DNA of 38,753 bases from Myxococcales bacterium (GTDB taxonomy: Bacteria > Myxococcota > Myxococcia > Myxococcales > JAKAPL01): assembly GCA_021783235.1 (NCBI GenBank), contig JAJXUD010000044.1, positions 1 to 38,753 on the forward strand. Direction: 5' to 3'. Positions 3,049-14,541 of the stretch are shown piece after piece; position 1 is the first letter of the stretch; every line of letters begins with the position of its first letter. The position numbers and the translations under genes were made by a program. The notes beneath the pieces are model-generated. The model did no database searches and was not told the DNA's origin. It saw only the letters and a list, made by a program, of their open reading frames with translations.

Positions 3049-3228
3049 CTACTTCTTCGCCTCGTGAGGCGCGAGGGCACCCAACACGACGCGACGGTAG
3101 ACGTCCTGGGCGAGACGCTCCTCGCGCGGCGCTCCACTCGTCCCTCGTGGGGCGGGATCCCAGGGCACGAGGCTCGCGCGGCAGGGCTCGTCCGGCGTCG
3201 TTTGCGGCCGGCCGGTTCGTGCTACCAT
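3049..3228 (-). pseudogene. Possible gene remnant, 59 codons
   Basis: The minus strand has a short frame ending EERLAQDVYRRVVLGALAPHEAKK with credible GC-rich codon use (GAC GTC TAC CGT CGC GTC) and a TAG stop. There is no Shine-Dalgarno sequence and no recognised family. It may be the 3' remnant of a gene lost at this accessory edge, or a chance frame. Confidence 0.25.
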
Positions 3229-3237
3229 CCGGGCATC

Positions 3238-6200
3238 ATGCGATCGCTCGTTCGGCTCTCGGTGGCCGTCCTTCTCTTCGCTGGATCGGCTTGCCGCTGT
3301 GGCGCGGTGGTGGGGCAGCTCGGGGACGGGGGCGCGGGCTCGGACGGCGGCCGAATCGGCGCGCGGGACGGCGGGATGGATGGGGGAGTTCACGGGGCCG
3401 ACGGGGGCGGCGGCTGTGGCCTTCGGACGTGCGCGTCGGCGGGGGCGAACTGCGGTCCGATCGGCGACGGCTGCGGGGGCGTGCTGGAGTGCGGCGGCTG
3501 CACCGCGCCCGAGAGCTGCGGCGGCGGCGGCACGCCGAGCGTCTGCGGGGGGCACAGCGGCTGCGTGGCCCGGAGCTGCGCGTCGGCGGGGGTGAACTGC
3601 GGCCCCATCGGCGACGGCTGCGGCGGCCTCTTGCAGTGCGGGAGCTGCGCCGCGCCCGACAGCTGCGGCGGCGGCGGGGTTCCGAGCGTCTGCGGCCTCT
3701 CGACGGCGGTCGACGGGGGTCGGCTGTCGGCGGACGGCGGCTGCCTCCCCCGGAGCTGCGCCGACCAGGGCGTCCAGTGCGGTCCGGTGGGCGACGGCTG
3801 CGGCGGGAGCCTCGACTGCGGCGGCTGCACGGCGCCCGCGATCTGCGGCGGCTCGGGGACGCCGTTCATCTGCGGGACGCCGGCCTGCACGCCGCGCAAC
3901 TGCGCCGAGGCCGACGCCGGCTGCGGCGCGGTGGGCGACGGCTGCGGCGGGCTGATCCAGTGCGGGAGCTGCAGCTCCCCGGCCATCTGCGGCGGCGGCG
4001 GCGTTCCGAACGTCTGCGGCGACGGCTACGCCGGCCTCGACGCCGGGCCGCCCTGCCAGGGCGTCCTCTCCGTCACCCCGGCCACCGCGACGATCGACGT
4101 CCCCCAGGGGAGCCCCACGACGCTCCAGCTCCAGGCGCTGCTCTCGGGCTGCGGCAGCCCCCAGGTCGTCCAGGCCTCGTGGATCTCGAGCCGCCCCGAC
4201 CTCGCCTCGGTGGGGACGGCCACGGGGCTCGTCTCGGCCCAGGGGCCCCGGGGCGGCCAGCTGATCGTGAGCGCGGGCTACCGGGGGCTGACGGCCGAGG
4301 CGACGATCACCGTGGTCGTCCAGGAGACCAGCTTCGCCGGCGCCCCCGCCAGCGCGCCGCAGTCGTTCGGGTCGGCCCCCGCCCCGGGCGCGCCGGGTTT
4401 CCTCTACCCGCTCGACCAGGTCGTCCTCCCCGTGAACCTCCAGCCGCCGGTCTTCCAGTGGAAGCCCGCCGCGGCCTCGGGCAGCGTCTACCGGGTGAGC
4501 CTGGCCGGGAGCTACGCCACCCTGACCGGCTACGTCGTCCCGACGAACGCGAGCCAGCCCGCCTGGCAGCCCGACGCGCAGAGCTGGTCCAACTTCGCCC
4601 AGAGCAACGTCGGCCGGACGGTGACCTTGGATCTCGCGGAGAGCACGGGCTCCGGCGCCCCGGTCTACGGCGCCGCGGAGCAGACGATGACCCTCGCCGC
4701 CTCGCGCTTCGCGGGGACCATCTACTACTGGTCGGTGAGCCTCGGGAAGATCCTCCGGGTCTCGGCGGGCTCGACCACCCCCCAGTCCTTTTACACCGCC
4801 CCCTCGAACGGCTCCAACAACTGCATCGCCTGCCACGCCGTCAGCCCGGACGGCACGAAGCTCTCGGCGGAGCTCTGGGGCGGCGGTCAGCCGGGAACCG
4901 TCGTCGACCTGACCCAGACCCCGGCGACGCCGCTCGTGAACGTGGGGCCGAACTGGGACTTCTCGACCTTCGACGCCACCGGCAGCCTCCTCGTCGTCTC
5001 GAACAACGGCGACCTGACGCTGCGCGACTCGTCCACGGCGAACCCGGTCCCCCAGGGGAGCGGCGAGGGGAACCTCGGGACGCTCGGATGTGGACCCGGG
5101 GCGACCTGCACGCAGCCCACCTTCTCGCGCGACGGCACGCTGCTCGCCTTCATCCGCGGCACTCCTGGCTACTTCGGAAGCGACTGGAGCTTCAGCGCCT
5201 CGGACCTCGAGATCGCGAGCTGGGCCGCGTCGAACCAGACCTTCGCCGCGCCCTCGGTGCTCGCGACGAACCAGTTCGACGGCCAGACGCTCGCGAACGT
5301 CTACCCGACCATCTCGGTCGACGACGCGCTCGTGGCCTTCACGCGCAGCCCCTGCTCCTACGGCTCGGGCTGCCCCCAGAGCGCGAAGCTCGATCTCGTG
5401 CCGGCGGCCGGGGGGACGCCGATCGAGCTCGCGCGGGCCGAGGACGGCGACACGACCAACCGCTTCCCGAACTTCTCTCCGTTCAAGGAGGGCGGCTACC
5501 ACTGGATGGCCTTCTTCACGATGCGCCGCTACGGCTGGGTCACCTCGGGCAATCGCCAGATCTGGGTGGCGGCGGTGGACGACCAGGCGAACCCGGTCAG
5601 CGACCCCTCGCACCCCCCCTTCTGGCTGCCGGGCCAGGATTCGACCTCGGACAACGACAAGGCGCAGTGGGCCACGCTGCCCTGCGTCGGCCAGGGCCAG
5701 CCGTGCCAGGGCGACATCGACTGCTGCTCGGGTGAGCTCTGCCGCGAGGCGGACGGCGGCTCGGCGTGCCTCCCGGCCGCCCAGGCCTGCGGCTTCACCG
5801 GGAACGCCTGCCAGTCGAGCAGCGACTGCTGCGCGCCGCTCGACTGCCTCGCGACCGGCCTCTGCGGGACGCCCTGCAGCCAGGCGGGGACGGCCTGCCA
5901 GAGCCAGGCGGACTGCTGCTCCGGGCTCGGCTGCGTCCAGGGCGTCTGCGTCATGCCGAGCTGCACGCCGCTGAGCTGCGCCCAGCAAGGGTTCCAGTGC
6001 GGCCTGCAGGGCAACGGCTGCGGTCAGTCCATCTCGTGCGGCGGCTGCGACGCGGGGAGCTGCGGCGGCGGCGGCGTGGCTGGCGCCTGCGGCTCGCCCT
6101 GCGTGCCGTCGAGCTGCCAGCAGCTCGGCGTCGAGTGCGGCCCCGCGGGCGACGGCTGCGGCGGCCTCCTCGACTGCGGCGGCTGCGATGGCGGGAGCTG

Positions 6201-6528
6201 CGGCGGCGGCGGGCTCTCGGGCGTCTGCGGCACCGGCACCCGCTGCGTCCCCCAGAGCTGCGCCGAGCAGGGCATCTCCTGCGGCCCCGCGGGCGACGGC
6301 TGCGGGGGGCAGCTCGACTGCGGCGGCTGCGATGGTGGGAGCTGCGGGGGGGGCGGGACCCCGAGCGTCTGCGGCTCGCCGAGCTGCACGCCGCTGACCT
6401 GCGCGGGGTTGGGCTTCAACTGCGGCAAGGCGGGCGACGGCTGCGGCGGCCTCCTCGACTGCGGCGGCTGCGACGCCGGAAGCTGTGGCCAGACCCACCC
6501 GAACGTCTGCGGGGGCGCCTTCGAGTAG
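3238..6528 (+). CDS. Large secreted Cys/Gly-repeat lipoprotein-like protein with Ig-like and CxxCH propeller domains
   Basis: This 1096-aa protein has a signal peptide ending in SAC (possible lipobox, C20). Four ~45-residue Cys repeats follow (about 3415-4020), each of form CxPxSCAxxGxxCGPxGDGCGGxLxCGxCxAPxxCGGGGxPxVCG. Next is an Ig-like (BIG2-type) domain (about 4050-4325) and a TolB/PD40-like propeller (about 4400-5640) containing CIACH at residues 529-533, followed by AVSPDG. CxxCH is the covalent haem-c site motif; in this context it could bind haem or be a structural knuckle. The C-terminus has a Dickkopf-like Cys stretch (5698-5953, CC pairs) and four more Cys repeats (5962-6522). Such repeats occur in myxobacterial surface proteins. 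The start at 3238 begins the signal peptide; a TACCAT hexamer lies 9 nt upstream with no Shine-Dalgarno sequence. Surface exposure is inferred. Confidence 0.9.
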   Translation: MRSLVRLSVAVLLFAGSACRCGAVVGQLGDGGAGSDGGRIGARDGGMDGGVHGADGGGGCGLRTCASAGANCGPIGDGCGGVLECGGCTAPESCGGGGTPSVCGGHSGCVARSCASAGVNCGPIGDGCGGLLQCGSCAAPDSCGGGGVPSVCGLSTAVDGGRLSADGGCLPRSCADQGVQCGPVGDGCGGSLDCGGCTAPAICGGSGTPFICGTPACTPRNCAEADAGCGAVGDGCGGLIQCGSCSSPAICGGGGVPNVCGDGYAGLDAGPPCQGVLSVTPATATIDVPQGSPTTLQLQALLSGCGSPQVVQASWISSRPDLASVGTATGLVSAQGPRGGQLIVSAGYRGLTAEATITVVVQETSFAGAPASAPQSFGSAPAPGAPGFLYPLDQVVLPVNLQPPVFQWKPAAASGSVYRVSLAGSYATLTGYVVPTNASQPAWQPDAQSWSNFAQSNVGRTVTLDLAESTGSGAPVYGAAEQTMTLAASRFAGTIYYWSVSLGKILRVSAGSTTPQSFYTAPSNGSNNCIACHAVSPDGTKLSAELWGGGQPGTVVDLTQTPATPLVNVGPNWDFSTFDATGSLLVVSNNGDLTLRDSSTANPVPQGSGEGNLGTLGCGPGATCTQPTFSRDGTLLAFIRGTPGYFGSDWSFSASDLEIASWAASNQTFAAPSVLATNQFDGQTLANVYPTISVDDALVAFTRSPCSYGSGCPQSAKLDLVPAAGGTPIELARAEDGDTTNRFPNFSPFKEGGYHWMAFFTMRRYGWVTSGNRQIWVAAVDDQANPVSDPSHPPFWLPGQDSTSDNDKAQWATLPCVGQGQPCQGDIDCCSGELCREADGGSACLPAAQACGFTGNACQSSSDCCAPLDCLATGLCGTPCSQAGTACQSQADCCSGLGCVQGVCVMPSCTPLSCAQQGFQCGLQGNGCGQSISCGGCDAGSCGGGGVAGACGSPCVPSSCQQLGVECGPAGDGCGGLLDCGGCDGGSCGGGGLSGVCGTGTRCVPQSCAEQGISCGPAGDGCGGQLDCGGCDGGSCGGGGTPSVCGSPSCTPLTCAGLGFNCGKAGDGCGGLLDCGGCDAGSCGQTHPNVCGGAFE

Positions 6529-6689: not shown

Positions 6690-8096
6690 GTGGCGAATTC
6701 GTACGACGTCACCATCATCGGTTCGGGTCCCGGGGGCTACGTCGCCGCCATTCGCGCGGCGCAGCTCGGCCTGCGAACCGCGCTCGTGGAGAAGGACAAG
6801 CGGCTCGGCGGCACCTGCCTGCACCGCGGCTGCATCCCCACGAAGGCCATGCTGTTCTCCGCGCAGCTCCTCGACCACGCGCGAGACGCGACGTCGTTCG
6901 GCCTCGTGATCCCGGAGGCGAAGGTCGACGTCGAGGGCGTCCACCGCTACAAGGACGCGGTCGTCGGCAAGATGGCGAACGGCATCGACTTCCTCATGAA
7001 GAAGAACAAGGTCGTGGTCCACAAGGGCCACGGCCGCATCGCCGGCCCCGGCCGCGTCGAGGTGACGCCCGAGGGCGGCGGCGCGCCCGAGCTGCTCGAG
7101 ACCAAGGCGACCATCGTCGCGACGGGCAGCGTGCCGCGCGCCCTCCCGGGCCTCGACTTCGACCACGAGAAGGTCTTCTCCTCGGACGACATCCTGCTCA
7201 TCCAGAAGATCCCGAAGCGGCTCGCCGTGCTCGGCGGCGGCGCGGTCGGGGTCGAGTTCGCCTCGATCTTCCGGAGCTACGGGAGCGAGGTCACGATCAT
7301 CGAGCTGATGCCGCGGCTGCTCCCCATCGAGGACGAGGACTCCTCGAAGGAGCTGCTCAAGGCCTTCCGGAAGCGGAAGATCCAGTGCCTGCTCGGCATG
7401 AAGCTCGAGAAGCTCGAGAAGACGGCGGACGGCGTGCGGCTGCTCGTCGTCTCGGCCGACGGAAAGAGCCAGACCGTCGAGGCGGACCTTTTGCTCTCGG
7501 CGGTGGGGCGGCGGCCGCTCACCGACGACGTGGGCCTCGGCGCGACGCAGGCGAAGCCGGACGCCAGGGGCTTCCTCGCCGTCGACTCGATGATGCGGAC
7601 GAAGGAGCCGAACGTCTACGCGATCGGCGACGTCGTGCCCACCGCGGCGCTGGCGCACGTCGCCTCCGCCGAGGGGATCCTGGCGGTCGAGCACTGGGCC
7701 GGCAAGAACCCGCGCCCCATCGATAGCGACCAGATCCCCTCGTGCACCTACTCGGCCCCCCAGGTGGCGAGCATCGGCCTCACCGAGGCGAAGGCCCGGG
7801 AGCGCGGTTACGACGTCAAGACCGGCGTCTTCCCCTTCTCGGCGATCGGAAAGGCGCAGATCCTCCGGGCGGGCGAGGGCATGGTGAAGATCGTCGCCGA
7901 GAAGAAGTACGACGAGTTTCTCGGCATCCACATGGTCGGCCCCGACGTCACCGACCTGCTCGCCGAGGGCGGCGTCGCGCTGAAGCTCGAGTCGACCGTC
8001 GAGGAGATCGCGCGGACCATCCATGCCCACCCGACGCTCTCGGAGGCGGTCGGGGAGGCGGCCCACGCGGTCCTGGGGCACGCGATCCACATCTAG
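6690..8096 (+). CDS. lpdA: Dihydrolipoyl dehydrogenase (E3)
   Basis: E3 reoxidises the dihydrolipoyl arm of 2-oxoacid dehydrogenase complexes using FAD and NAD+. The 468-aa length is normal. Visible motifs are the FAD fingerprint GSGPGGYVAAIRAAQLG (11-27), the redox disulfide CLHRGC (C43, C48), the NAD fingerprint GGGAVGVEFASIF, the AIGDVV FAD motif, and the C-terminal HAHPTLSEAV segment with the catalytic His-Glu pair. The GTG start has GGAGG 5 nt upstream. It is the first gene of a closely spaced series that also encodes E1 and E2 subunits and the lipoylation enzymes, so it presumably serves that complex and perhaps the cell's other lipoyl complexes. Confidence 0.97.
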   Translation: MANSYDVTIIGSGPGGYVAAIRAAQLGLRTALVEKDKRLGGTCLHRGCIPTKAMLFSAQLLDHARDATSFGLVIPEAKVDVEGVHRYKDAVVGKMANGIDFLMKKNKVVVHKGHGRIAGPGRVEVTPEGGGAPELLETKATIVATGSVPRALPGLDFDHEKVFSSDDILLIQKIPKRLAVLGGGAVGVEFASIFRSYGSEVTIIELMPRLLPIEDEDSSKELLKAFRKRKIQCLLGMKLEKLEKTADGVRLLVVSADGKSQTVEADLLLSAVGRRPLTDDVGLGATQAKPDARGFLAVDSMMRTKEPNVYAIGDVVPTAALAHVASAEGILAVEHWAGKNPRPIDSDQIPSCTYSAPQVASIGLTEAKARERGYDVKTGVFPFSAIGKAQILRAGEGMVKIVAEKKYDEFLGIHMVGPDVTDLLAEGGVALKLESTVEEIARTIHAHPTLSEAVGEAAHAVLGHAIHI

Positions 8097-8114
8097 GCGC
8101 CCCACCTTCAGGCA

Positions 8115-9005
8115 ATGGACGAGACGCTCATCCCGCTGAAGACGCCGCGCGCGCGCAAGCCCGACTGGCTCAAGGTCCGGCTGCCCGCGGGCGAGGGCTA
8201 CGAGCGCGTGCGATCGCTGCTCCAGTCGCTCGACCTGCACACGGTCTGCGCCGAGTCGCGCTGCCCCAACATGGCCGAGTGCTGGGGCGGCGGCACCGCC
8301 ACGGTCATGCTGATGGGCGCCGTCTGCACGCGGGCCTGCCGCTTCTGCCACGTCGTGAGCGGCCGGCCCGAGCCGCTCGACCCGCGCGAGCCGAGGCACC
8401 TCGCCGAGGCCGTCGCGCGGCTCGGGCTGCGCTACCTCGTCGTGACCTCGGTCGACCGCGACGACCTCCCCGACGGCGGGGCCGGCCACTTCGCGAGCGC
8501 CATCCGCGAGCTCAAGGGCGCCTCCCCGGGGACGAAGGTCGAGGTCCTGATCCCGGATTTCCGAGGCGAGACGGCGCTGCTCGACGTCGTGGCCGCGGCC
8601 GGGCCCGACGTCGTCGCTCAGAACCTCGAGACCGTTCGGCGGCTCACGAGCTCCGTCCGCGACCCGCGCGCCGGCTACGACCAGACGCTCGAGGTCCTGC
8701 GCCACCTCAAATCCCGGGGGCTCGTGACCAAGAGCTCGCTCATGGTGGGGCTCGGCGAGACGCGGGCCGAGCTGCGGGAGGCCTTCGCGGATCTGCGCGC
8801 GGCCGGGGTCGACGTGCTCACCGTCGGCCAGTACCTGCGGCCGTCCCCCTGGAACCTCCCGGTCGAGCGATTCGTCGAGCCCTCGGAGTTCGACGAGCTC
8901 GCCGGCGAGGCGCGGGAGCTCGGCTTTCTCTACGTGGCGGCGGGCCCGCTCGTTCGATCGAGCTATCGGGCGGCGGAGCTCTTCTTGGAAGGGAAGCTCC
9001 ATTGA
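8115..9005 (+). CDS. lipA: Lipoyl synthase
   Basis: This radical SAM enzyme inserts two sulfurs into octanoyl chains bound to lipoyl domains. The 296-aa protein carries both iron-sulfur clusters' ligands: the LipA-specific triad C45, C50, C56 ([12 protein letters not shown]) and the SAM cluster C71, C75, C78 (CTRACRFC). It also has the C-terminal RSSY motif ([11 protein letters not shown]) that ligates the auxiliary cluster through Ser. With lipB downstream in the same operon, the pathway from octanoyl-ACP to lipoylated E2 is complete at this locus. The ATG start is 18 nt past lpdA. Its stop overlaps the possible TTG start of the next gene. Confidence 0.97.
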
Positions 9006-9019
9006 ACCGGGCGGAGAAG

Positions 9020-10006
9020 ATGAAGTCTGGGGCCGGGAAGGAGCAGCGGTCGGAGCGGGCCGCGGCGCGCCCGGCCTCGTCGCGGCCGAGCTCGCGTCCC
9101 ACCGCGGCGCCGGAGCTCGAACGGCTCCTGCGCGAGGGGCTCCGCTCGCTCGCGCTCGACGAGCGGATGGAGCGCTGGGCGGCGGCCGGGAGCGTTCCCT
9201 ACCCGTTGCCGGCGGGGGAGTGGGGTCCGGCGCTGGCCGCGGCGGGGCTCGCGCTCGAGGAGCGCGACTGGCTCTTCCCGGGGCTGCGGGAGGCCCGCGG
9301 GGCGCTCTCTCGCGGCATGCCGCTCGAGGCCTACCTCGCCCAGATCCTCGGCCGCTCGCTCGGGCAGGGCTCGGTCGTCTCCTCGCCGGGCGAGATCGCC
9401 GACGCGGCCCACCGGGTCGCCTCGGTGGCCGGCGGCCCCGCGTCCCACCTGCCGCACGCGGTCGGCGCGGCGCTGGCGGCGCGGCTGCGGCGCAAGGACG
9501 AGGTCGCGCTGGCCCTCTGTGGCGAGGCCGCGGTGGCCGAGCCCGACTTCCACGCCGCCTGCAACTTCGCGGGCGTCTACCGCGCGCCGCTGCTGCTCGG
9601 GGTGAGGCTCGAGGCGGGATCCGACTTCGACGTGGAGGCGCGGGCGGCCGCTTACGGAATCGCGGGGGTCCGGCTCGATCCCGGCGATCTCGAGCCCTTC
9701 CTCGCCGCGCTACGAGCGCTCGTCGGCCGCGTCCGCGGCGGCAGCCCGACGCTCCTCGCGCTCGCCCACCCGGTCGATCCGGAGGCGGCGGTGGCGCAGC
9801 TCGCCGGGCGGATCGGCGCCGATGTCGCGGCCCTCCGCGCCGAGGCGGGCGTCGCCTGCGACGCGGCCTTCGAGGCCGCGGGCCGTGGGAGCGCCGCCTC
9901 GCTGGAGGATCTCGCGCGCCACGTCTTCGCCGGCCCGGAGAGGCACCTGGGGGCCGAGCTCCGTGAGCTCACCGAGAGGCCCGAGCGGCTCGACCAAGAG
10001 ATCTGA
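9020..10006 (+). CDS. Degenerate E1-alpha-like subunit (thiamine-diphosphate site lost)
   Basis: This 328-aa protein aligns along its length with the true E1-alpha encoded at 12316-13425: LDERMERW, ERDWLFPGLREA, LPHAVGAALAARLR and EPDFHAACNFA match that subunit's landmarks. The cofactor site is missing. GDG (true subunit 166-168) is GEA (168-170), the NNQWSIS segment is replaced by RLEAGSDFD, and the RLGAHSSSDDP loop is reduced to ALAHPVDP. It therefore should not bind Mg-thiamine diphosphate by the family mechanism. It sits between lipA and E1-beta, with 8 nt to E1-beta. A structural, regulatory or assembly role is inferred. The ATG at 9020 has GGAG just upstream; a TTG at 9002 overlapping the lipA stop, behind GGAAGGGA, is an alternative. 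A basic, Ser/Ala-rich N-terminal 30 residues is unlike E1-alpha. Confidence 0.85.
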   Translation: MKSGAGKEQRSERAAARPASSRPSSRPTAAPELERLLREGLRSLALDERMERWAAAGSVPYPLPAGEWGPALAAAGLALEERDWLFPGLREARGALSRGMPLEAYLAQILGRSLGQGSVVSSPGEIADAAHRVASVAGGPASHLPHAVGAALAARLRRKDEVALALCGEAAVAEPDFHAACNFAGVYRAPLLLGVRLEAGSDFDVEARAAAYGIAGVRLDPGDLEPFLAALRALVGRVRGGSPTLLALAHPVDPEAAVAQLAGRIGADVAALRAEAGVACDAAFEAAGRGSAASLEDLARHVFAGPERHLGAELRELTERPERLDQEI

Positions 10007-10014
10007 GGGACGCG

Positions 10015-11007
10015 ATGCCGACCATGAACCTGATTCAAGCGGTCAACGACGCCTTGCGGCTCCGGATGCGGGAGGATCCGCGGGTGGTCGTCCTCGGCGA
10101 GGACGTCGGCAAGTTCGGCGGCGTCTTCCGCGCCACCGCCGGCCTCGTGGAGGAGTTCGGCGAGGAGCGGGTCATCGACACGCCGCTCGCCGAGGGCGGC
10201 ATCGTCGGCGCCGCCATCGGCATGGCGATGAACGGCCTGCGGCCCGTCCCCGAGATCCAGTTCTCGGACTTCATCTACCCGGCCTTCGACCAGATCGTGA
10301 ACGAGCTCGCGAAGCTTCGCTACCGGAGCGGCGGGCAGTACTCGGCGCCGCTCGTCATCCGCACGCCGTCGGGCGGCGGCATCAAGGGCGGCCACTACCA
10401 CTCGCAGTCCCCGGAGGCCTACTTCGTCCACACCCCGGGGCTCAAGGTGGTCATGCCCTCGAACCCGCTCGACGCGAAGGGGCTCCTGCTCTCGGCGATG
10501 CGGGGCGAGGATCCGGTGATCTTCTTCGAGCCGAAGCGGCTCTACCGGGCCGCCCGCGGCGAGGTGCCCGAGGGCGAGGTCGAGATCCCGCTCGGCGTCG
10601 CGGCGCGGGCCTGGCCCGAGGCCGAGGCGCCCGCGCTCGCGACGGTGATCTCGTGGGGCGCCATGGTGCCCGAGGCGGTCGAGGCCGCCCAGGCGCTCGC
10701 CGGGGAGGGCGTCGCGGTCGAGGTCATCGACCTGCGGACGCTCTGGCCGCTCGATCTCGACACCGTGCTCGCCTCGGTGAAGCGCACGGGCCGCGCCGTG
10801 GTGGTCCACGAGGCGCCGAGGAGCTGCGGCTTCGGCGCCGAGGTCGTCGCGCTCGTTCAGGAGCGGGCCTTCAGCTGGCTCGCCGCCCCCGTGCAGCGGG
10901 TCACCGGGCTCGACACGCCGTTCCCCTACACGCTCGAGCTCGAGTACCTGCCGCTCGCGCCGCGCATCGCCCGCGCCGTCCGCGCGGTCGTCGCCTACCA
11001 ACCCTGA
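10015..11007 (+). CDS. 2-oxoacid dehydrogenase E1 component, beta subunit (branched-chain type)
   Basis: E1-beta pairs with E1-alpha in an alpha2-beta2 enzyme that decarboxylates a 2-oxoacid and transfers the acyl group to E2-lipoate. The 330-aa protein shows VLGEDVGKFGGVFRAT near the N-terminus, DTPLAEGGIVGAAIGMA, the substrate-channel segment GGHYHSQSPEAYFVHTPGLK and IFFEPKRLYR. These last two segments resemble branched-chain 2-oxoacid dehydrogenases more than pyruvate dehydrogenases. The C-terminal transketolase-like domain (LATVISWGAMV...VIDLRTLWPLD) is intact. The ATG follows a GAGGG Shine-Dalgarno sequence. It ends 9 nt before E2. The substrate assignment to branched-chain oxoacids is probable, not proven. 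Confidence 0.95.
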   Translation: MPTMNLIQAVNDALRLRMREDPRVVVLGEDVGKFGGVFRATAGLVEEFGEERVIDTPLAEGGIVGAAIGMAMNGLRPVPEIQFSDFIYPAFDQIVNELAKLRYRSGGQYSAPLVIRTPSGGGIKGGHYHSQSPEAYFVHTPGLKVVMPSNPLDAKGLLLSAMRGEDPVIFFEPKRLYRAARGEVPEGEVEIPLGVAARAWPEAEAPALATVISWGAMVPEAVEAAQALAGEGVAVEVIDLRTLWPLDLDTVLASVKRTGRAVVVHEAPRSCGFGAEVVALVQERAFSWLAAPVQRVTGLDTPFPYTLELEYLPLAPRIARAVRAVVAYQP

Positions 11008-11016
11008 AGGAGAGCC

Positions 11017-12312
11017 ATGCGCTACGAGTTCAAGCTGCCGGACATCGGCGAGGGTGTGATCGAGGGCGAGATCGTCCGCTGGCTCGTCCAGGACGGGGAG
11101 GCGGTCCAGGCCGACCAGCCGCTCGTCGAGGTGATGACCGACAAGGCGACCGTCGTCATCCCGTCGCCCAAGGCGGGCAAGGTGGTCGAGCGGCGCGGGG
11201 CCGAGGGCGGGATGGCCAAGGTCCACGAGACGCTCGTCGTGCTCGAGGTCGGGGAAGGGGCGGCGGCCGTTGCGCCACAGGCCCAGCCCGCCGCGATGAG
11301 GCCCGCGTCGTCGCCGCTCGCGCCGAAGGTCGCCCCGGCGCCGGCGCCCGCCGCCGCGAAGGCGTCGCCGGCGGCTCCCGTCGCCGTCGTCTCCGCCGCG
11401 GAGGCGGACGGCGCCCACGTTCGATCCACGCCCGTCACCCGCAAGCTCGCCGCCGAGCACGGCCTCGATCTCGCGCGCGTCTCGGGGAGCGGACCGGGCG
11501 GCCGGGTGCTCAAGACCGACGTCCTCGCGCTCGTCTCGGGGAACGGCGCGACCGCCGCGCCGGTCTCGGCGCCGGCGCCGCGGCCCGCGGCCGTCGGCGG
11601 AGCCCTGGAGGAGCGGATCCCGATCCGGGGGCTGCGCAAACGGATCGCCGAGAAGATGCAGCGGAGCAAGCGGACCGCCGCCCACTTCACCTTCGTCGAG
11701 GAGGTGGACGCCACCCGGCTGGTCGAGCTGCGCAAGCGGATCAACGACGCGCAGGCGAAGTCGGAGGGAGGCGTCAAGATCTCCTTCCTCCCCTTCGTCG
11801 TGAAGGCCGTCGTCGAGGGGCTCAAGCGCTACCCGACCCTCAACGCCTCCGTCGACGACGAGAAGAACGAGATCGTGATCAAGCGGAGGTACGACCTCGG
11901 CATCGCGGCGGCGACGCCGGACGGCCTCATCGTCCCCGTGATCCACGGCGCCGACCGGCTGAGCCTGCGGGGGCTCGCGCAGGAGATCGACCGGCTGGGC
12001 GCGGACGCCCGGGCGGGCAAGAGCCGGCTGGACGACCTGCAGGGCGGGACCTTCACCATCACGAGCCTCGGCCAGATCGGCGGCCTCTTCGCGACCCCCG
12101 TCATCAACCACCCGGAGGTGGCGATCCTCGGCATCCACAAGATGCGGCCTCGGCCGGTCGTGCGCGACGGGCAGATCGTCGTGCGCGACATGATGTACGT
12201 CTCCTGCGCGTTCGATCACCGGATCATCGACGGCTCGGTGGGCGCCCAGTTCACCTACGAGGTGATCAAGTACCTCGAGGATCCGGAGCTCTTGATGCTG
12301 GAGCTCGCCTAG
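11017..12312 (+). CDS. Dihydrolipoamide acyltransferase (E2), branched-chain type
   Basis: E2 is the core of the complex; it carries the swinging lipoyl arm and transfers the acyl group to CoA. The 431-aa protein has one lipoyl domain (about 3-80) with the modified lysine K43 in EVMTDKATV and an Ala/Pro-rich linker (about 85-130). An E3/E1-binding domain follows (about 135-171, STPVTRKLAAEHGLDLARVSG). The catalytic domain (about 195-431) ends with HRIIDG (H401, D405), the HxxxDG motif. The N-terminal KLPDIGEGVIEGEI is typical of branched-chain or 2-oxoacid E2 proteins. AAGGAGAG lies just before the ATG. The product needs LipA and LipB from the same operon to work. Confidence 0.96.
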   Translation: MRYEFKLPDIGEGVIEGEIVRWLVQDGEAVQADQPLVEVMTDKATVVIPSPKAGKVVERRGAEGGMAKVHETLVVLEVGEGAAAVAPQAQPAAMRPASSPLAPKVAPAPAPAAAKASPAAPVAVVSAAEADGAHVRSTPVTRKLAAEHGLDLARVSGSGPGGRVLKTDVLALVSGNGATAAPVSAPAPRPAAVGGALEERIPIRGLRKRIAEKMQRSKRTAAHFTFVEEVDATRLVELRKRINDAQAKSEGGVKISFLPFVVKAVVEGLKRYPTLNASVDDEKNEIVIKRRYDLGIAAATPDGLIVPVIHGADRLSLRGLAQEIDRLGADARAGKSRLDDLQGGTFTITSLGQIGGLFATPVINHPEVAILGIHKMRPRPVVRDGQIVVRDMMYVSCAFDHRIIDGSVGAQFTYEVIKYLEDPELLMLELA

Positions 12313-12315
12313 CCG

Positions 12316-13425
12316 ATGGCGGCTCGCACGGAAAGCCTCGGTCGGGCCCACCCCGCGGCGAGGGCAAAGAGAGAGCCCTCCGCTCCCGCGGCGGATCTCG
12401 AGCGGGAGCTGCGGGTCTACCGCCACATGGTCCTCCTGCGGCTGCTCGACGAGCGGATGCTCACGCTCCAGCGGCAGGGGCGCGTCGGCTTTTACGGGAG
12501 CTGCTACGGGCAGGAGGCGGCGACCCTCGGATCGGCGGCCGTCCTCGATGCTGGCGACTGGATCTTCCCCGCGCTGCGCGAGGGTGGCGCGATGCTCTTG
12601 CGCGGCTACCCGCTCGTCTCCTACCTCTGCCAGATCTTCGGGAACTCGGGCGACCCGACGAAGGGGCGCCAGATGCCGTCGCACCAGGCCGCGGCCTCGG
12701 TGCACCAGGTGAGCTGGTCGTCGGTCATCGGGACCCAGCTGCCGCAGGCCGTCGGCGCGGCCCACGCGGCGAGGCTGCGGGGCGAGCCGACCGTGGTGAT
12801 GGCCTACCTGGGCGACGGCGCCACCTCGAGCGCCGACTTCCACCACGCCCTCACGTTCGCCGCGCGGCTGAAGGCGCCGGTGGTCTTCTGCTGCCAGAAC
12901 AACCAGTGGTCCATCTCGCTGCCCGTCTCGCGGCAGACCGCGGCGCCGGAGCTCGCGCTCAAGGGCGCGGCTTACGGGGTCCCCTCGAAGCGGGTGGACG
13001 GCAACGATCTCGCCGCGGTGCTCGAGGCGGCGGGCGAGGCGGTGGCGGCCGCGCGGGCGGGCGAGGGGCCGCGCTTCCTCGAGCTGCTCACCTATCGGCT
13101 CGGGGCCCACAGCAGCTCGGACGACCCCACGCGCTACCGTGACCAGAAGGAGGTCGACCGCTGGCTCGCGCGCGATCCGCTCCAGCTCGAACGCCTCCGG
13201 CTCGTCGAGGCGGGCGTCTGGGACGAGGAGCGCGAAGGGGCCTTGCGCGGCGAGCAGGCCGAGGTCATCGCGCGCGCGGTGGCGGAGGCCGAGGCGTTCC
13301 CGCCGCCCTCGCCGGAGACGCTCTTCGAGGACCTCTACGCGGATCCGCCCTGGATCGTCTCCGAGCAGCGCGAGGCGCTGCGCGCCGAGCTCGCGGAGGC
13401 CCCCCGGAAGAAGCCGGGGGCGTAG
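12316..13425 (+). CDS. 2-oxoacid dehydrogenase E1 component, alpha subunit (branched-chain type)
   Basis: This 369-aa catalytic partner of E1-beta has an intact thiamine-diphosphate motif: GDG at 166-168, followed about 28 residues later by NN (195-196) in CCQNNQWSIS. Also present are GRQMPSHQ, the IGTQLPQAVGAAHAAR helix and the loop RLGAHSSSDDPTRYR, which contains the conserved His and the Ser residues phosphorylated in mitochondrial branched-chain enzymes. It lies 3 nt after E2, an unusual order (E1-beta, E2, E1-alpha), while the position before E1-beta is occupied by the degenerate paralogue. This suggests the original alpha gene was duplicated and the upstream copy was repurposed. Confidence 0.95.
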   Translation: MAARTESLGRAHPAARAKREPSAPAADLERELRVYRHMVLLRLLDERMLTLQRQGRVGFYGSCYGQEAATLGSAAVLDAGDWIFPALREGGAMLLRGYPLVSYLCQIFGNSGDPTKGRQMPSHQAAASVHQVSWSSVIGTQLPQAVGAAHAARLRGEPTVVMAYLGDGATSSADFHHALTFAARLKAPVVFCCQNNQWSISLPVSRQTAAPELALKGAAYGVPSKRVDGNDLAAVLEAAGEAVAAARAGEGPRFLELLTYRLGAHSSSDDPTRYRDQKEVDRWLARDPLQLERLRLVEAGVWDEEREGALRGEQAEVIARAVAEAEAFPPPSPETLFEDLYADPPWIVSEQREALRAELAEAPRKKPGA

Positions 13426-13431
13426 GCGCGG

Positions 13432-14541
13432 ATGGCGGGCAGCCGCAGCCTGACGATCCACCGGCTCGGCCGCGTCGAGTACGCCGACGGGCTCCTGCTG
13501 ATGCAGGCGTTCCGCGACGCCCGCGCGCGCGGCGAGGTCTCGGACTCGCTCTTCCTGCTCGAGCACCCGCCCGTCCTGACCTTCGGCCGGGGCGCGAAGC
13601 GTGAGCACCTGCTCGCGCCCCCCGAGCTCCTCGAGGCACGGGGCATCGAGCTCTTCGAGACCGAGCGCGGTGGCGACGTCACCTACCACGGCCCGGGGCA
13701 GGTCGTGGGCTACCCCATCGTCGACCTCGCGCCGGATCGCTGCGACGTGCGCCGCTACGTGCGAGATCTGGAGGAGGCGATGATCCGCGCCGCCGCGGAC
13801 TTCGGCGTGACCGCCGGCCGGGTCTCGAAGATGAACGGCATCTGGCTCGGCGAGGACGCCGATCCGAGCACGCCCGGCCTGCCGCGCAAGCTCGGCGCCG
13901 TCGGGGTGCATCTCTCGCGCTGGATCAGCTCGCACGGCTTCGCCTTCAACGCGAACACGCGCCTCGCAGACTTCGAGCTCATCGTCCCCTGCGGCCTGGT
14001 CGGCCGCGGCGTCACCTCCCTCGAGCGCGAGCTCGGCCGGCCCGTCGAGCTCGAGGCCGTCGAGGGCTCGCTCGGAAGGCAGGTCGCCCGCGCGCTGGAT
14101 CGGGAGCCCGTCGAGGCAGAGCCGCCCCGGCGGTTCGTCCAGGTGCAGGTCGTCCGCGAGGGAGGGCGCGGGCCCGAGCTGCTCGGACTCGAACGGACGG
14201 TGGCGCGGGGCGGAATCTGGCAGCCGGTCACGGGCCACGTCGAGCCCGGCGAGTCGACCGAGCTGGCCGCGGCCCGGGAGCTGCTCGAGGAGACGGGGCT
14301 CTCCGCCGAGGTCCAGCCGCTCGGCTACCGGCATTCGTTCGTCTGGCTCTCCGGCGAGCGGCCTTCGGTGGCCGAGGAGACGGCCTTCTTCGCGCGGGCG
14401 CCCGCCGACTTTCAGCCGACCCTCGCGGCGCGCGAGCACCGAGCGAGCGGCTGGCTATCGCTCGACGAGGCGCTCCGGCGCTTTCCCTACGCGGGGCTGA
14501 AGCGGGGCGCGCGGCTCGCCCTGGGGCAGGGGCAGCCGTGA
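13432..14541 (+). CDS. lipB: Octanoyltransferase LipB fused to a C-terminal Nudix domain
   Basis: Residues 1-225 are LipB, which transfers octanoate from ACP to lipoyl domains before LipA adds sulfur. Visible are [33 protein letters not shown], the active-site lysine K153 in [13 protein letters not shown], and cysteine C187 in IVPCGL. Residues about 233-369 add a Nudix hydrolase domain with a full Nudix box from G268 to L290 ([22 protein letters not shown], matching Gx5Ex7REUxEExGU). LipB alone is normally about 200-230 aa. One frame with no internal stop or frameshift makes a real fusion. It is 6 nt after E1-alpha, and its TGA overlaps the GTG of RNase D. The Nudix substrate is unknown. Confidence 0.95.

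Follow-up and report, generated by a model that had tools for sequence, protein, structure and literature searches.

The window, the whole 38,753-nt stretch of DNA that was analysed, carries a complete 2-oxoacid dehydrogenase operon with two E1-alpha-like genes. One of them, here termed psE1a, is missing the cofactor loops of E1-alpha, both in the window and in a genome of another genus of the same family, and it is a pseudoenzyme that has been retained rather than a recent pseudogene. We give about even chances to the proposal that its product is a non-catalytic subunit of the E1 complex, in which case one of the alpha seats is the most likely place for it.

The operon and the psE1a gene

A first-pass annotation of the window had pointed to an E1-alpha paralogue without an active site inside a complete operon, and homology, the loop deletions and the position of the gene all confirm this. 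The operon has the order lpd-lipA-psE1a-E1beta-E2-E1alpha-lipB, with short intergenic gaps, and consists of the following genes:

6690..8096, + strand: lpd (E3), dihydrolipoamide dehydrogenase, operon gene 1 (Pyr_redox_2 and Pyr_redox_dim; orthologue in the second psE1a-carrying genome, G001, 75% identical)
8115..9005, + strand: lipA, lipoyl synthase (Radical_SAM and LIAS_N)
9020..10006, + strand: psE1a, E1-alpha paralogue without cofactor loops, 328 aa (PF00676, 38-row alignment, motif scan, AlphaFold2 model)
10015..11007, + strand: E1-beta (Transket_pyr and Transketolase_C)
11017..12312, + strand: E2, dihydrolipoyl acyltransferase with a single lipoyl domain (Biotin_lipoyl, E3_binding, 2-oxoacid_dh)
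12316..13425, + strand: canonical E1-alpha of the alpha2 type, with GDG, NN and HSSSDD (PF00676 277 bits over the full profile; motif scan)
13432..14541, + strand: lipB fused to a NUDIX domain (LplA-B_cat and NUDIX)

The psE1a gene is separated from lipA by 14 nt and from the E1-beta gene by 8 nt. Scans of the operon for promoters and terminators found none, and a viral scan was likewise negative. NUDIX is the C-terminal part of the lipB fusion (13432-14541); many relatives give matches about as long, which suggests a fusion shared widely within the order, and the lipB match in G001 spans the LipB part only. A separate ORF in the window, at 3064-6528 (1154 aa), contains many cysteine-rich repeats of the type CGPxGDGCGG...CG, and its product is possibly a secreted or surface protein.

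The psE1a ORF (9020-10006) starts with ATG and encodes 328 aa with no internal stops. Its product matches PF00676 (E1_dh) with 68.6 bits, well above the cut-off of 22, over profile positions 39-220 only, and the G001 copy scores 70.7 bits; the window's own genome has four PF00676 matches in total. The downstream E1-alpha is 35% identical over 217 aa (E 7e-24), and the best solved relative by sequence is 1um9_A (E 2.8e-18). Against the NCBIfam model for pyruvate dehydrogenase E1 alpha (TIGR03181), psE1a reaches 87.2 bits, below the cut-off of 411.35, and the canonical copy also falls below it, at 372.9, so that this cut-off does not decide the matter. A domain search with both copies found no partner domain gained by psE1a.

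Homology and a codon test rule out a chance ORF. An assembly or frameshift artefact is also ruled out, as the gene, its slot and its deletions are the same in two separate genomes. The perfect frame over 328 codons, which the first-pass annotation had taken as a sign of maintenance, is indeed open, and was over-weighted: at 73% GC a random frame of this length stays open with a probability of 0.006 to 0.047. Because of this GC content, openness is weak evidence, and the test of selection described below carries the argument instead.

Loss of the cofactor loops

The two psE1a copies were aligned with 38 of 45 canonical rows collected from relatives, near-duplicates and cut rows being excluded. 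Adding 6 to a residue number of the window's canonical E1-alpha gives the number in Geobacillus E1 alpha, a conversion that fits D173, Q200, N202, I206 and H271 without gaps. As described in PMC2663715, the inner loop of the Geobacillus protein spans residues 203-212, and it ligates Mg and contacts the diphosphate. Residues 275-293 make up the outer loop, and the lipoyl domain is engaged by the loops. The deletions in psE1a fall on these inner and outer loops and on N202 and H271, at two sites in the window:

9605..9610, + strand: first deletion site, between R196 and L197; the canonical NN and the inner loop (Geobacillus 201 to about 210) are missing
9761..9781, + strand: second deletion site, residues 248-254; the outer loop is mostly gone, as is the catalytic His (H271), in two stretches

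Neither copy has a residue left at the positions of N202, I206 and H271. Because the missing loops hold the Mg/diphosphate and lipoyl-domain contacts, psE1a would be expected to be free of cofactor.

Motif scan and alignment agree with the earlier description of the two paralogues, in which the downstream E1-alpha has GDG, NN and the HSSSDD loop and psE1a has GEA, no NN and no such loop. GEA is present in the window copy as claimed, but was given too much weight as a sign of lost function. Most alpha1-type copies (those encoded ahead of E1-beta, alpha2 copies being encoded behind E2) have GEG at the GDG position, and one E1-alpha from a relative (G007, L168, match at 7835-8710) has GEA yet retains ENN and the His loop. 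The deletions, and not GEA, are the real lesion, and to judge from the G007 copy, GDG is a less strict rule than is commonly supposed.

Changes extend beyond the loops. In the canonical rows, 84 columns reach a uniformity of 95% or more. Of the 19 that lie in the loops, both psE1a copies keep one. Of the 65 that lie elsewhere, 26 are kept by both copies and 13 by one, while neither copy keeps the remaining 26, which are lost or deleted. These last 26 may include interface residues. At the Q200 position psE1a has Arg, as do alpha1 copies. At the D173 position an acidic residue (E169) survives in the window copy but not in the G001 copy. The latter has, in place of GDG, a sequence that lacks the acidic residue of that motif. 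Both psE1a copies retain, in DFH, the Asp that corresponds to D180 of Geobacillus E1, where D180 and E183 make up a proton wire; structure entry 1w88 is the D180N/E183Q variant.

Could the cofactor site have been rebuilt from other residues, leaving psE1a catalytic? The window copy does keep the conserved Arg (R90) along with the acidic residue at the D173 position. Against this stand the three positions deleted in both copies and a 38-residue active-site deletion in human transketolase that abolishes specific ThDP binding and activity (PMC3485151). We consider a catalytic psE1a extremely improbable.

The two copies have 33 residues in common that are rare (at most 5%) in the canonical rows, among them E67-W68-G69, H131, A137-G138-G139-P140, H143 and C280. 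Conservation between the two copies is highest here:

9395..9484, + strand: best-conserved psE1a stretch, residues 126-155, IADAAHRVASVAGGP..HLPHAVGAA.AA, replacing the canonical SS-[PC]-I-x-x-Q segment

Within it, a block of 25 codons (residues 131-155) is 84% identical between the copies, as against 17% for the last 23 aligned residues. The shared new residues fit a changed, retained role better than drift.

Distribution of psE1a and contents of the slot

Searches of 60 relatives and then of 195 genomes of the phylum found psE1a in two of the 195, the window's own genome and G001. The G001 copy is 47% identical and has the deletions of the window copy. In a comparison listing 14 protein pairs from the two genomes, identity is 49% for psE1a, 50-79% for twelve pairs and 35% for one short pair. 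It also lies between lipA and E1-beta, so that the proposed adjacency of orthologues to these genes is seen in both copies found. With a profile made from the pair and run over the 195 genomes, the two copies score 614 and 599 bits and the next match scores 163.5; those of the next matches that were scanned are E1-alpha proteins with loops. A genome of the same genus as G001 (G002, 69% complete) is uninformative, since its operon contig ends inside E2 and no E1-beta resembling that of the operon was found.

The contents of the slot between lipA and E1-beta were tallied at 59 loci, chosen by their match to psE1a or its profile and hence not a random sample. Loci were scorable when lipA and E1-beta (60% or more) stood in line, as was the case for 43 of the 59. 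The slot holds a loop-bearing E1-alpha at 23 of these, is empty at 18 and holds psE1a at two. Every locus with an empty slot (18/18) has an alpha2 behind E2. Two genomes, G022 (L116) and G157 (L181), have two loop-bearing E1-alpha genes with one E1-beta and E2, alpha1 lying before E1-beta and alpha2 behind E2; G157 was tallied as having no alpha2, its E2 match being split, and it is the motif scan that places alpha2 behind E2 there.

In that motif scan, 68 of 73 rows (one G013 gene entered twice) have G[DE]G together with NN or AN. Three divergent rows miss the pattern and, on reading, keep the N and the His loop; the two psE1a rows are the only ones without the cofactor loop. Solitary E1-alpha-like genes in which AN replaces NN occur at L150/L195 (G013), L196 (G034) and L197 (G031), with no E1-beta, E2 or lip genes found nearby. 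A pattern scan of contigs with the window protein returned, among 80 of its 332 matches, mostly E1-alpha proteins of Streptomyces and one Anaeromyxobacter locus, which alone was used.

Selection on psE1a

The main rival to a subunit role is slow decay, in which an alpha1 made redundant by alpha2 lost its loops and is eroding towards an empty slot, with any residual constraint due to folding or to co-translation within the operon only. Several observations lean this way. Between the window's genome and G001, dN is 0.46 for psE1a versus 0.12-0.21 for six neighbouring genes, so that psE1a evolves 2-4 times faster. Its C-terminal end is poorly conserved, the slot is empty at 18 of the 43 scorable loci, and open frames are kept fairly easily at 73% GC.

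Tests of neutrality point the other way. Because dS is saturated, the absolute omega of psE1a is uncertain and only the range at fixed dS of 1.5-4 is meaningful: omega is 0.31, 0.19 and 0.12 at dS of 1.5, 2.5 and 4. The neighbours have omega of 0.05-0.08 at dS 2.5. For psE1a, omega=1 is rejected (LR 90.9), and a neutral simulation at dS 2.5 gives an expected identity of 11.5% (largest of 200 simulations, 15.8%) versus the observed 47%. The substitution pattern thus indicates that psE1a is under purifying selection. Unless the deletions arose twice, their presence in both copies means that the loops should have been lost before most of this divergence took place. The strongly conserved 25-codon block and the 33 shared new residues also speak against slow decay, which we regard as rather unlikely.

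Frames are open in both genomes, with no frameshift or stop, and the neutral rate is rejected, so the marks of a pseudogene are missing. The earlier claim that psE1a is maintained therefore survives its dN/dS check (omega about 0.19, neutrality rejected, for one genome pair with saturated dS), and the frameshifts named there as counter-evidence appear in neither of the two genomes. That annotation had also allowed that relatives keeping GDG and NN would mean local decay only. Such relatives exist, as 23 of the 43 slots hold GDG or GEG together with NN and the His loop, but local decay only does not follow, because both genera share the deletions and the 33 new residues, and omega is about 0.19.

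Predicted structure

AlphaFold2 models of the psE1a monomer have a pLDDT of 87.3 and a pTM of 0.82 for the window copy, and 85.5 and 0.84 for the G001 copy. In VIA-align, the closest chain to both is Thermus E1 alpha 1um9_A, with Z 32.1 (285 aligned, 2.2 Å) for the window copy and Z 34.3 (300 aligned, 2.5 Å) for the G001 copy. Although the models were built on alignments that consist mostly of canonical E1-alpha, and so are biased towards that fold, psE1a is predicted to have the E1-alpha fold.

Possible function of psE1a

The first-pass annotation had put forward E1 assembly, regulation, a third subunit or a decoy of E1-beta as candidate roles. If psE1a is a subunit of the E1 complex, it would be produced together with E1-beta and enter the same complex, presumably unable to bind Mg-ThDP or to engage the lipoyl arm. 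In the most likely form, the E1 tetramer would be alpha.psi-alpha.beta2, with psE1a in one of its two alpha seats. A single active site would then remain, and the dead half would serve as a structural or allosteric partner. Less likely is an inert psi-alpha2.beta2 that would titrate E1-beta. Speaking for a subunit role are the slot beside E1-beta in both genera, deletions that fall on the cofactor loops, the 26 near-invariant columns that both copies keep elsewhere, the Asp in DFH, the rejection of neutrality, the 33 shared new residues and models that match E1-alpha chains over most of their length. Counting against it are the 26 such columns that neither copy keeps, the poorly conserved C-terminal end, the 18 of 43 loci that have an empty slot and manage without psE1a, and the fact that only two psE1a copies are known. 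A more specific and tentative possibility, to which we give less credence than to a subunit role as such, is a natural half-site E1, that is, an obligate alpha.psi-alpha.beta2 with a dedicated dead subunit, one active site and no alternation between sites.

Alternatively, a psE1a homodimer might act outside the E1 complex and bind a different ligand or protein; it might, for instance, sense lipoylation or the thiamine state. On this reading its place in the operon would serve co-regulation only. Many conserved columns outside the loops have changed too, and the shared new residues named above may form a new surface or pocket. However, psE1a adjoins E1-beta in both genera, its overall fold is predicted to be that of E1-alpha, and it has acquired no partner domain. 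We therefore find a role outside the complex decidedly unlikely.

Relation to known systems

Non-catalytic paralogues of subunits are familiar from the mammalian pyruvate dehydrogenase complex, in which E3BP (protein X) is such a subunit, as proposed for psE1a; E3BP, however, is an E2 paralogue and eukaryotic. In its predicted fold, its operon company and its 35% identity to the neighbouring E1-alpha, psE1a resembles the E1-alpha of alpha2beta2 2-oxoacid dehydrogenases (PF00676; TIGR03181; Thermus 1um9/1umb, human BCKDH 1dtw, Geobacillus 1w85). Unlike these, it is without NN, the inner loop, the catalytic His and a complete outer loop.

Another ThDP-enzyme paralogue missing active-site residues is TKTL1, and human transketolase with the 38-residue active-site deletion, a model variant for TKTL1, shows no specific ThDP binding and no activity (PMC3485151). 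TKTL1 differs from psE1a in that it is human, belongs to a homodimeric enzyme family, has one 38-residue deletion and does not share an operon with its active partner. Pseudoenzyme partners in hetero-oligomers, in which a dead homologue joins a live subunit and alters its activity, are exemplified by an inactive AdoMetDC homologue, TbPRMT1 PRO and an inactive ALDH2 variant (PMC10211241). Those cases belong to other enzyme families, and assembly of psE1a with a live subunit is a proposal. Thus, pseudoenzyme partners (PMC10211241) and a ThDP-enzyme paralogue with an active-site deletion (TKTL1, PMC3485151) are already known, and a limited literature search, which may miss the spelling "E1alpha", found no described E1-alpha pseudoenzyme, an absence that is weakly supported. 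If the proposed role is correct, psE1a would represent, in a bacterial operon, a pseudoenzyme partner within a complex of central metabolism, and a natural complex with one dead alpha would test the mutual need of the two active sites.

Origin of psE1a

In a phylogenetic tree the two psE1a copies form one clade (100/100) on a long branch that attaches between alpha1 and alpha2. Neither a clade of psE1a with its own family's alpha2 (p-AU 0.066) nor one with two alpha1 rows (p-AU 0.305) is rejected. Because its slot matches that of alpha1, psE1a most probably descends from the alpha1 that other families keep there, and the two genera probably separated only after this ancestral alpha1 had lost its cofactor site.

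A different origin, in which alpha2 of the same family was duplicated in tandem and the new copy came to lie upstream and diverged rapidly, draws on the unplaced long branch, on the survival of the clade with alpha2, and on the Leu that precedes the conserved Arg (R90) in the window copy, as in alpha2 copies. It is at odds with the equivalence of the slot to that of alpha1 at 23 loci and with G022 and G157, which keep loop-bearing alpha1 and alpha2 in the same order, and we judge it unlikely. The question of function is unaffected by the choice between the two origins.

With an alpha1 origin, we infer that the old operon had two alpha genes, that most families lost one or the other, and that this family disarmed one. 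The series of slots (alpha1 with loops; alpha1 and alpha2; psE1a and alpha2; empty slot and alpha2) looks like the record of a redundant subunit that was lost in some lines and altered and kept in another.
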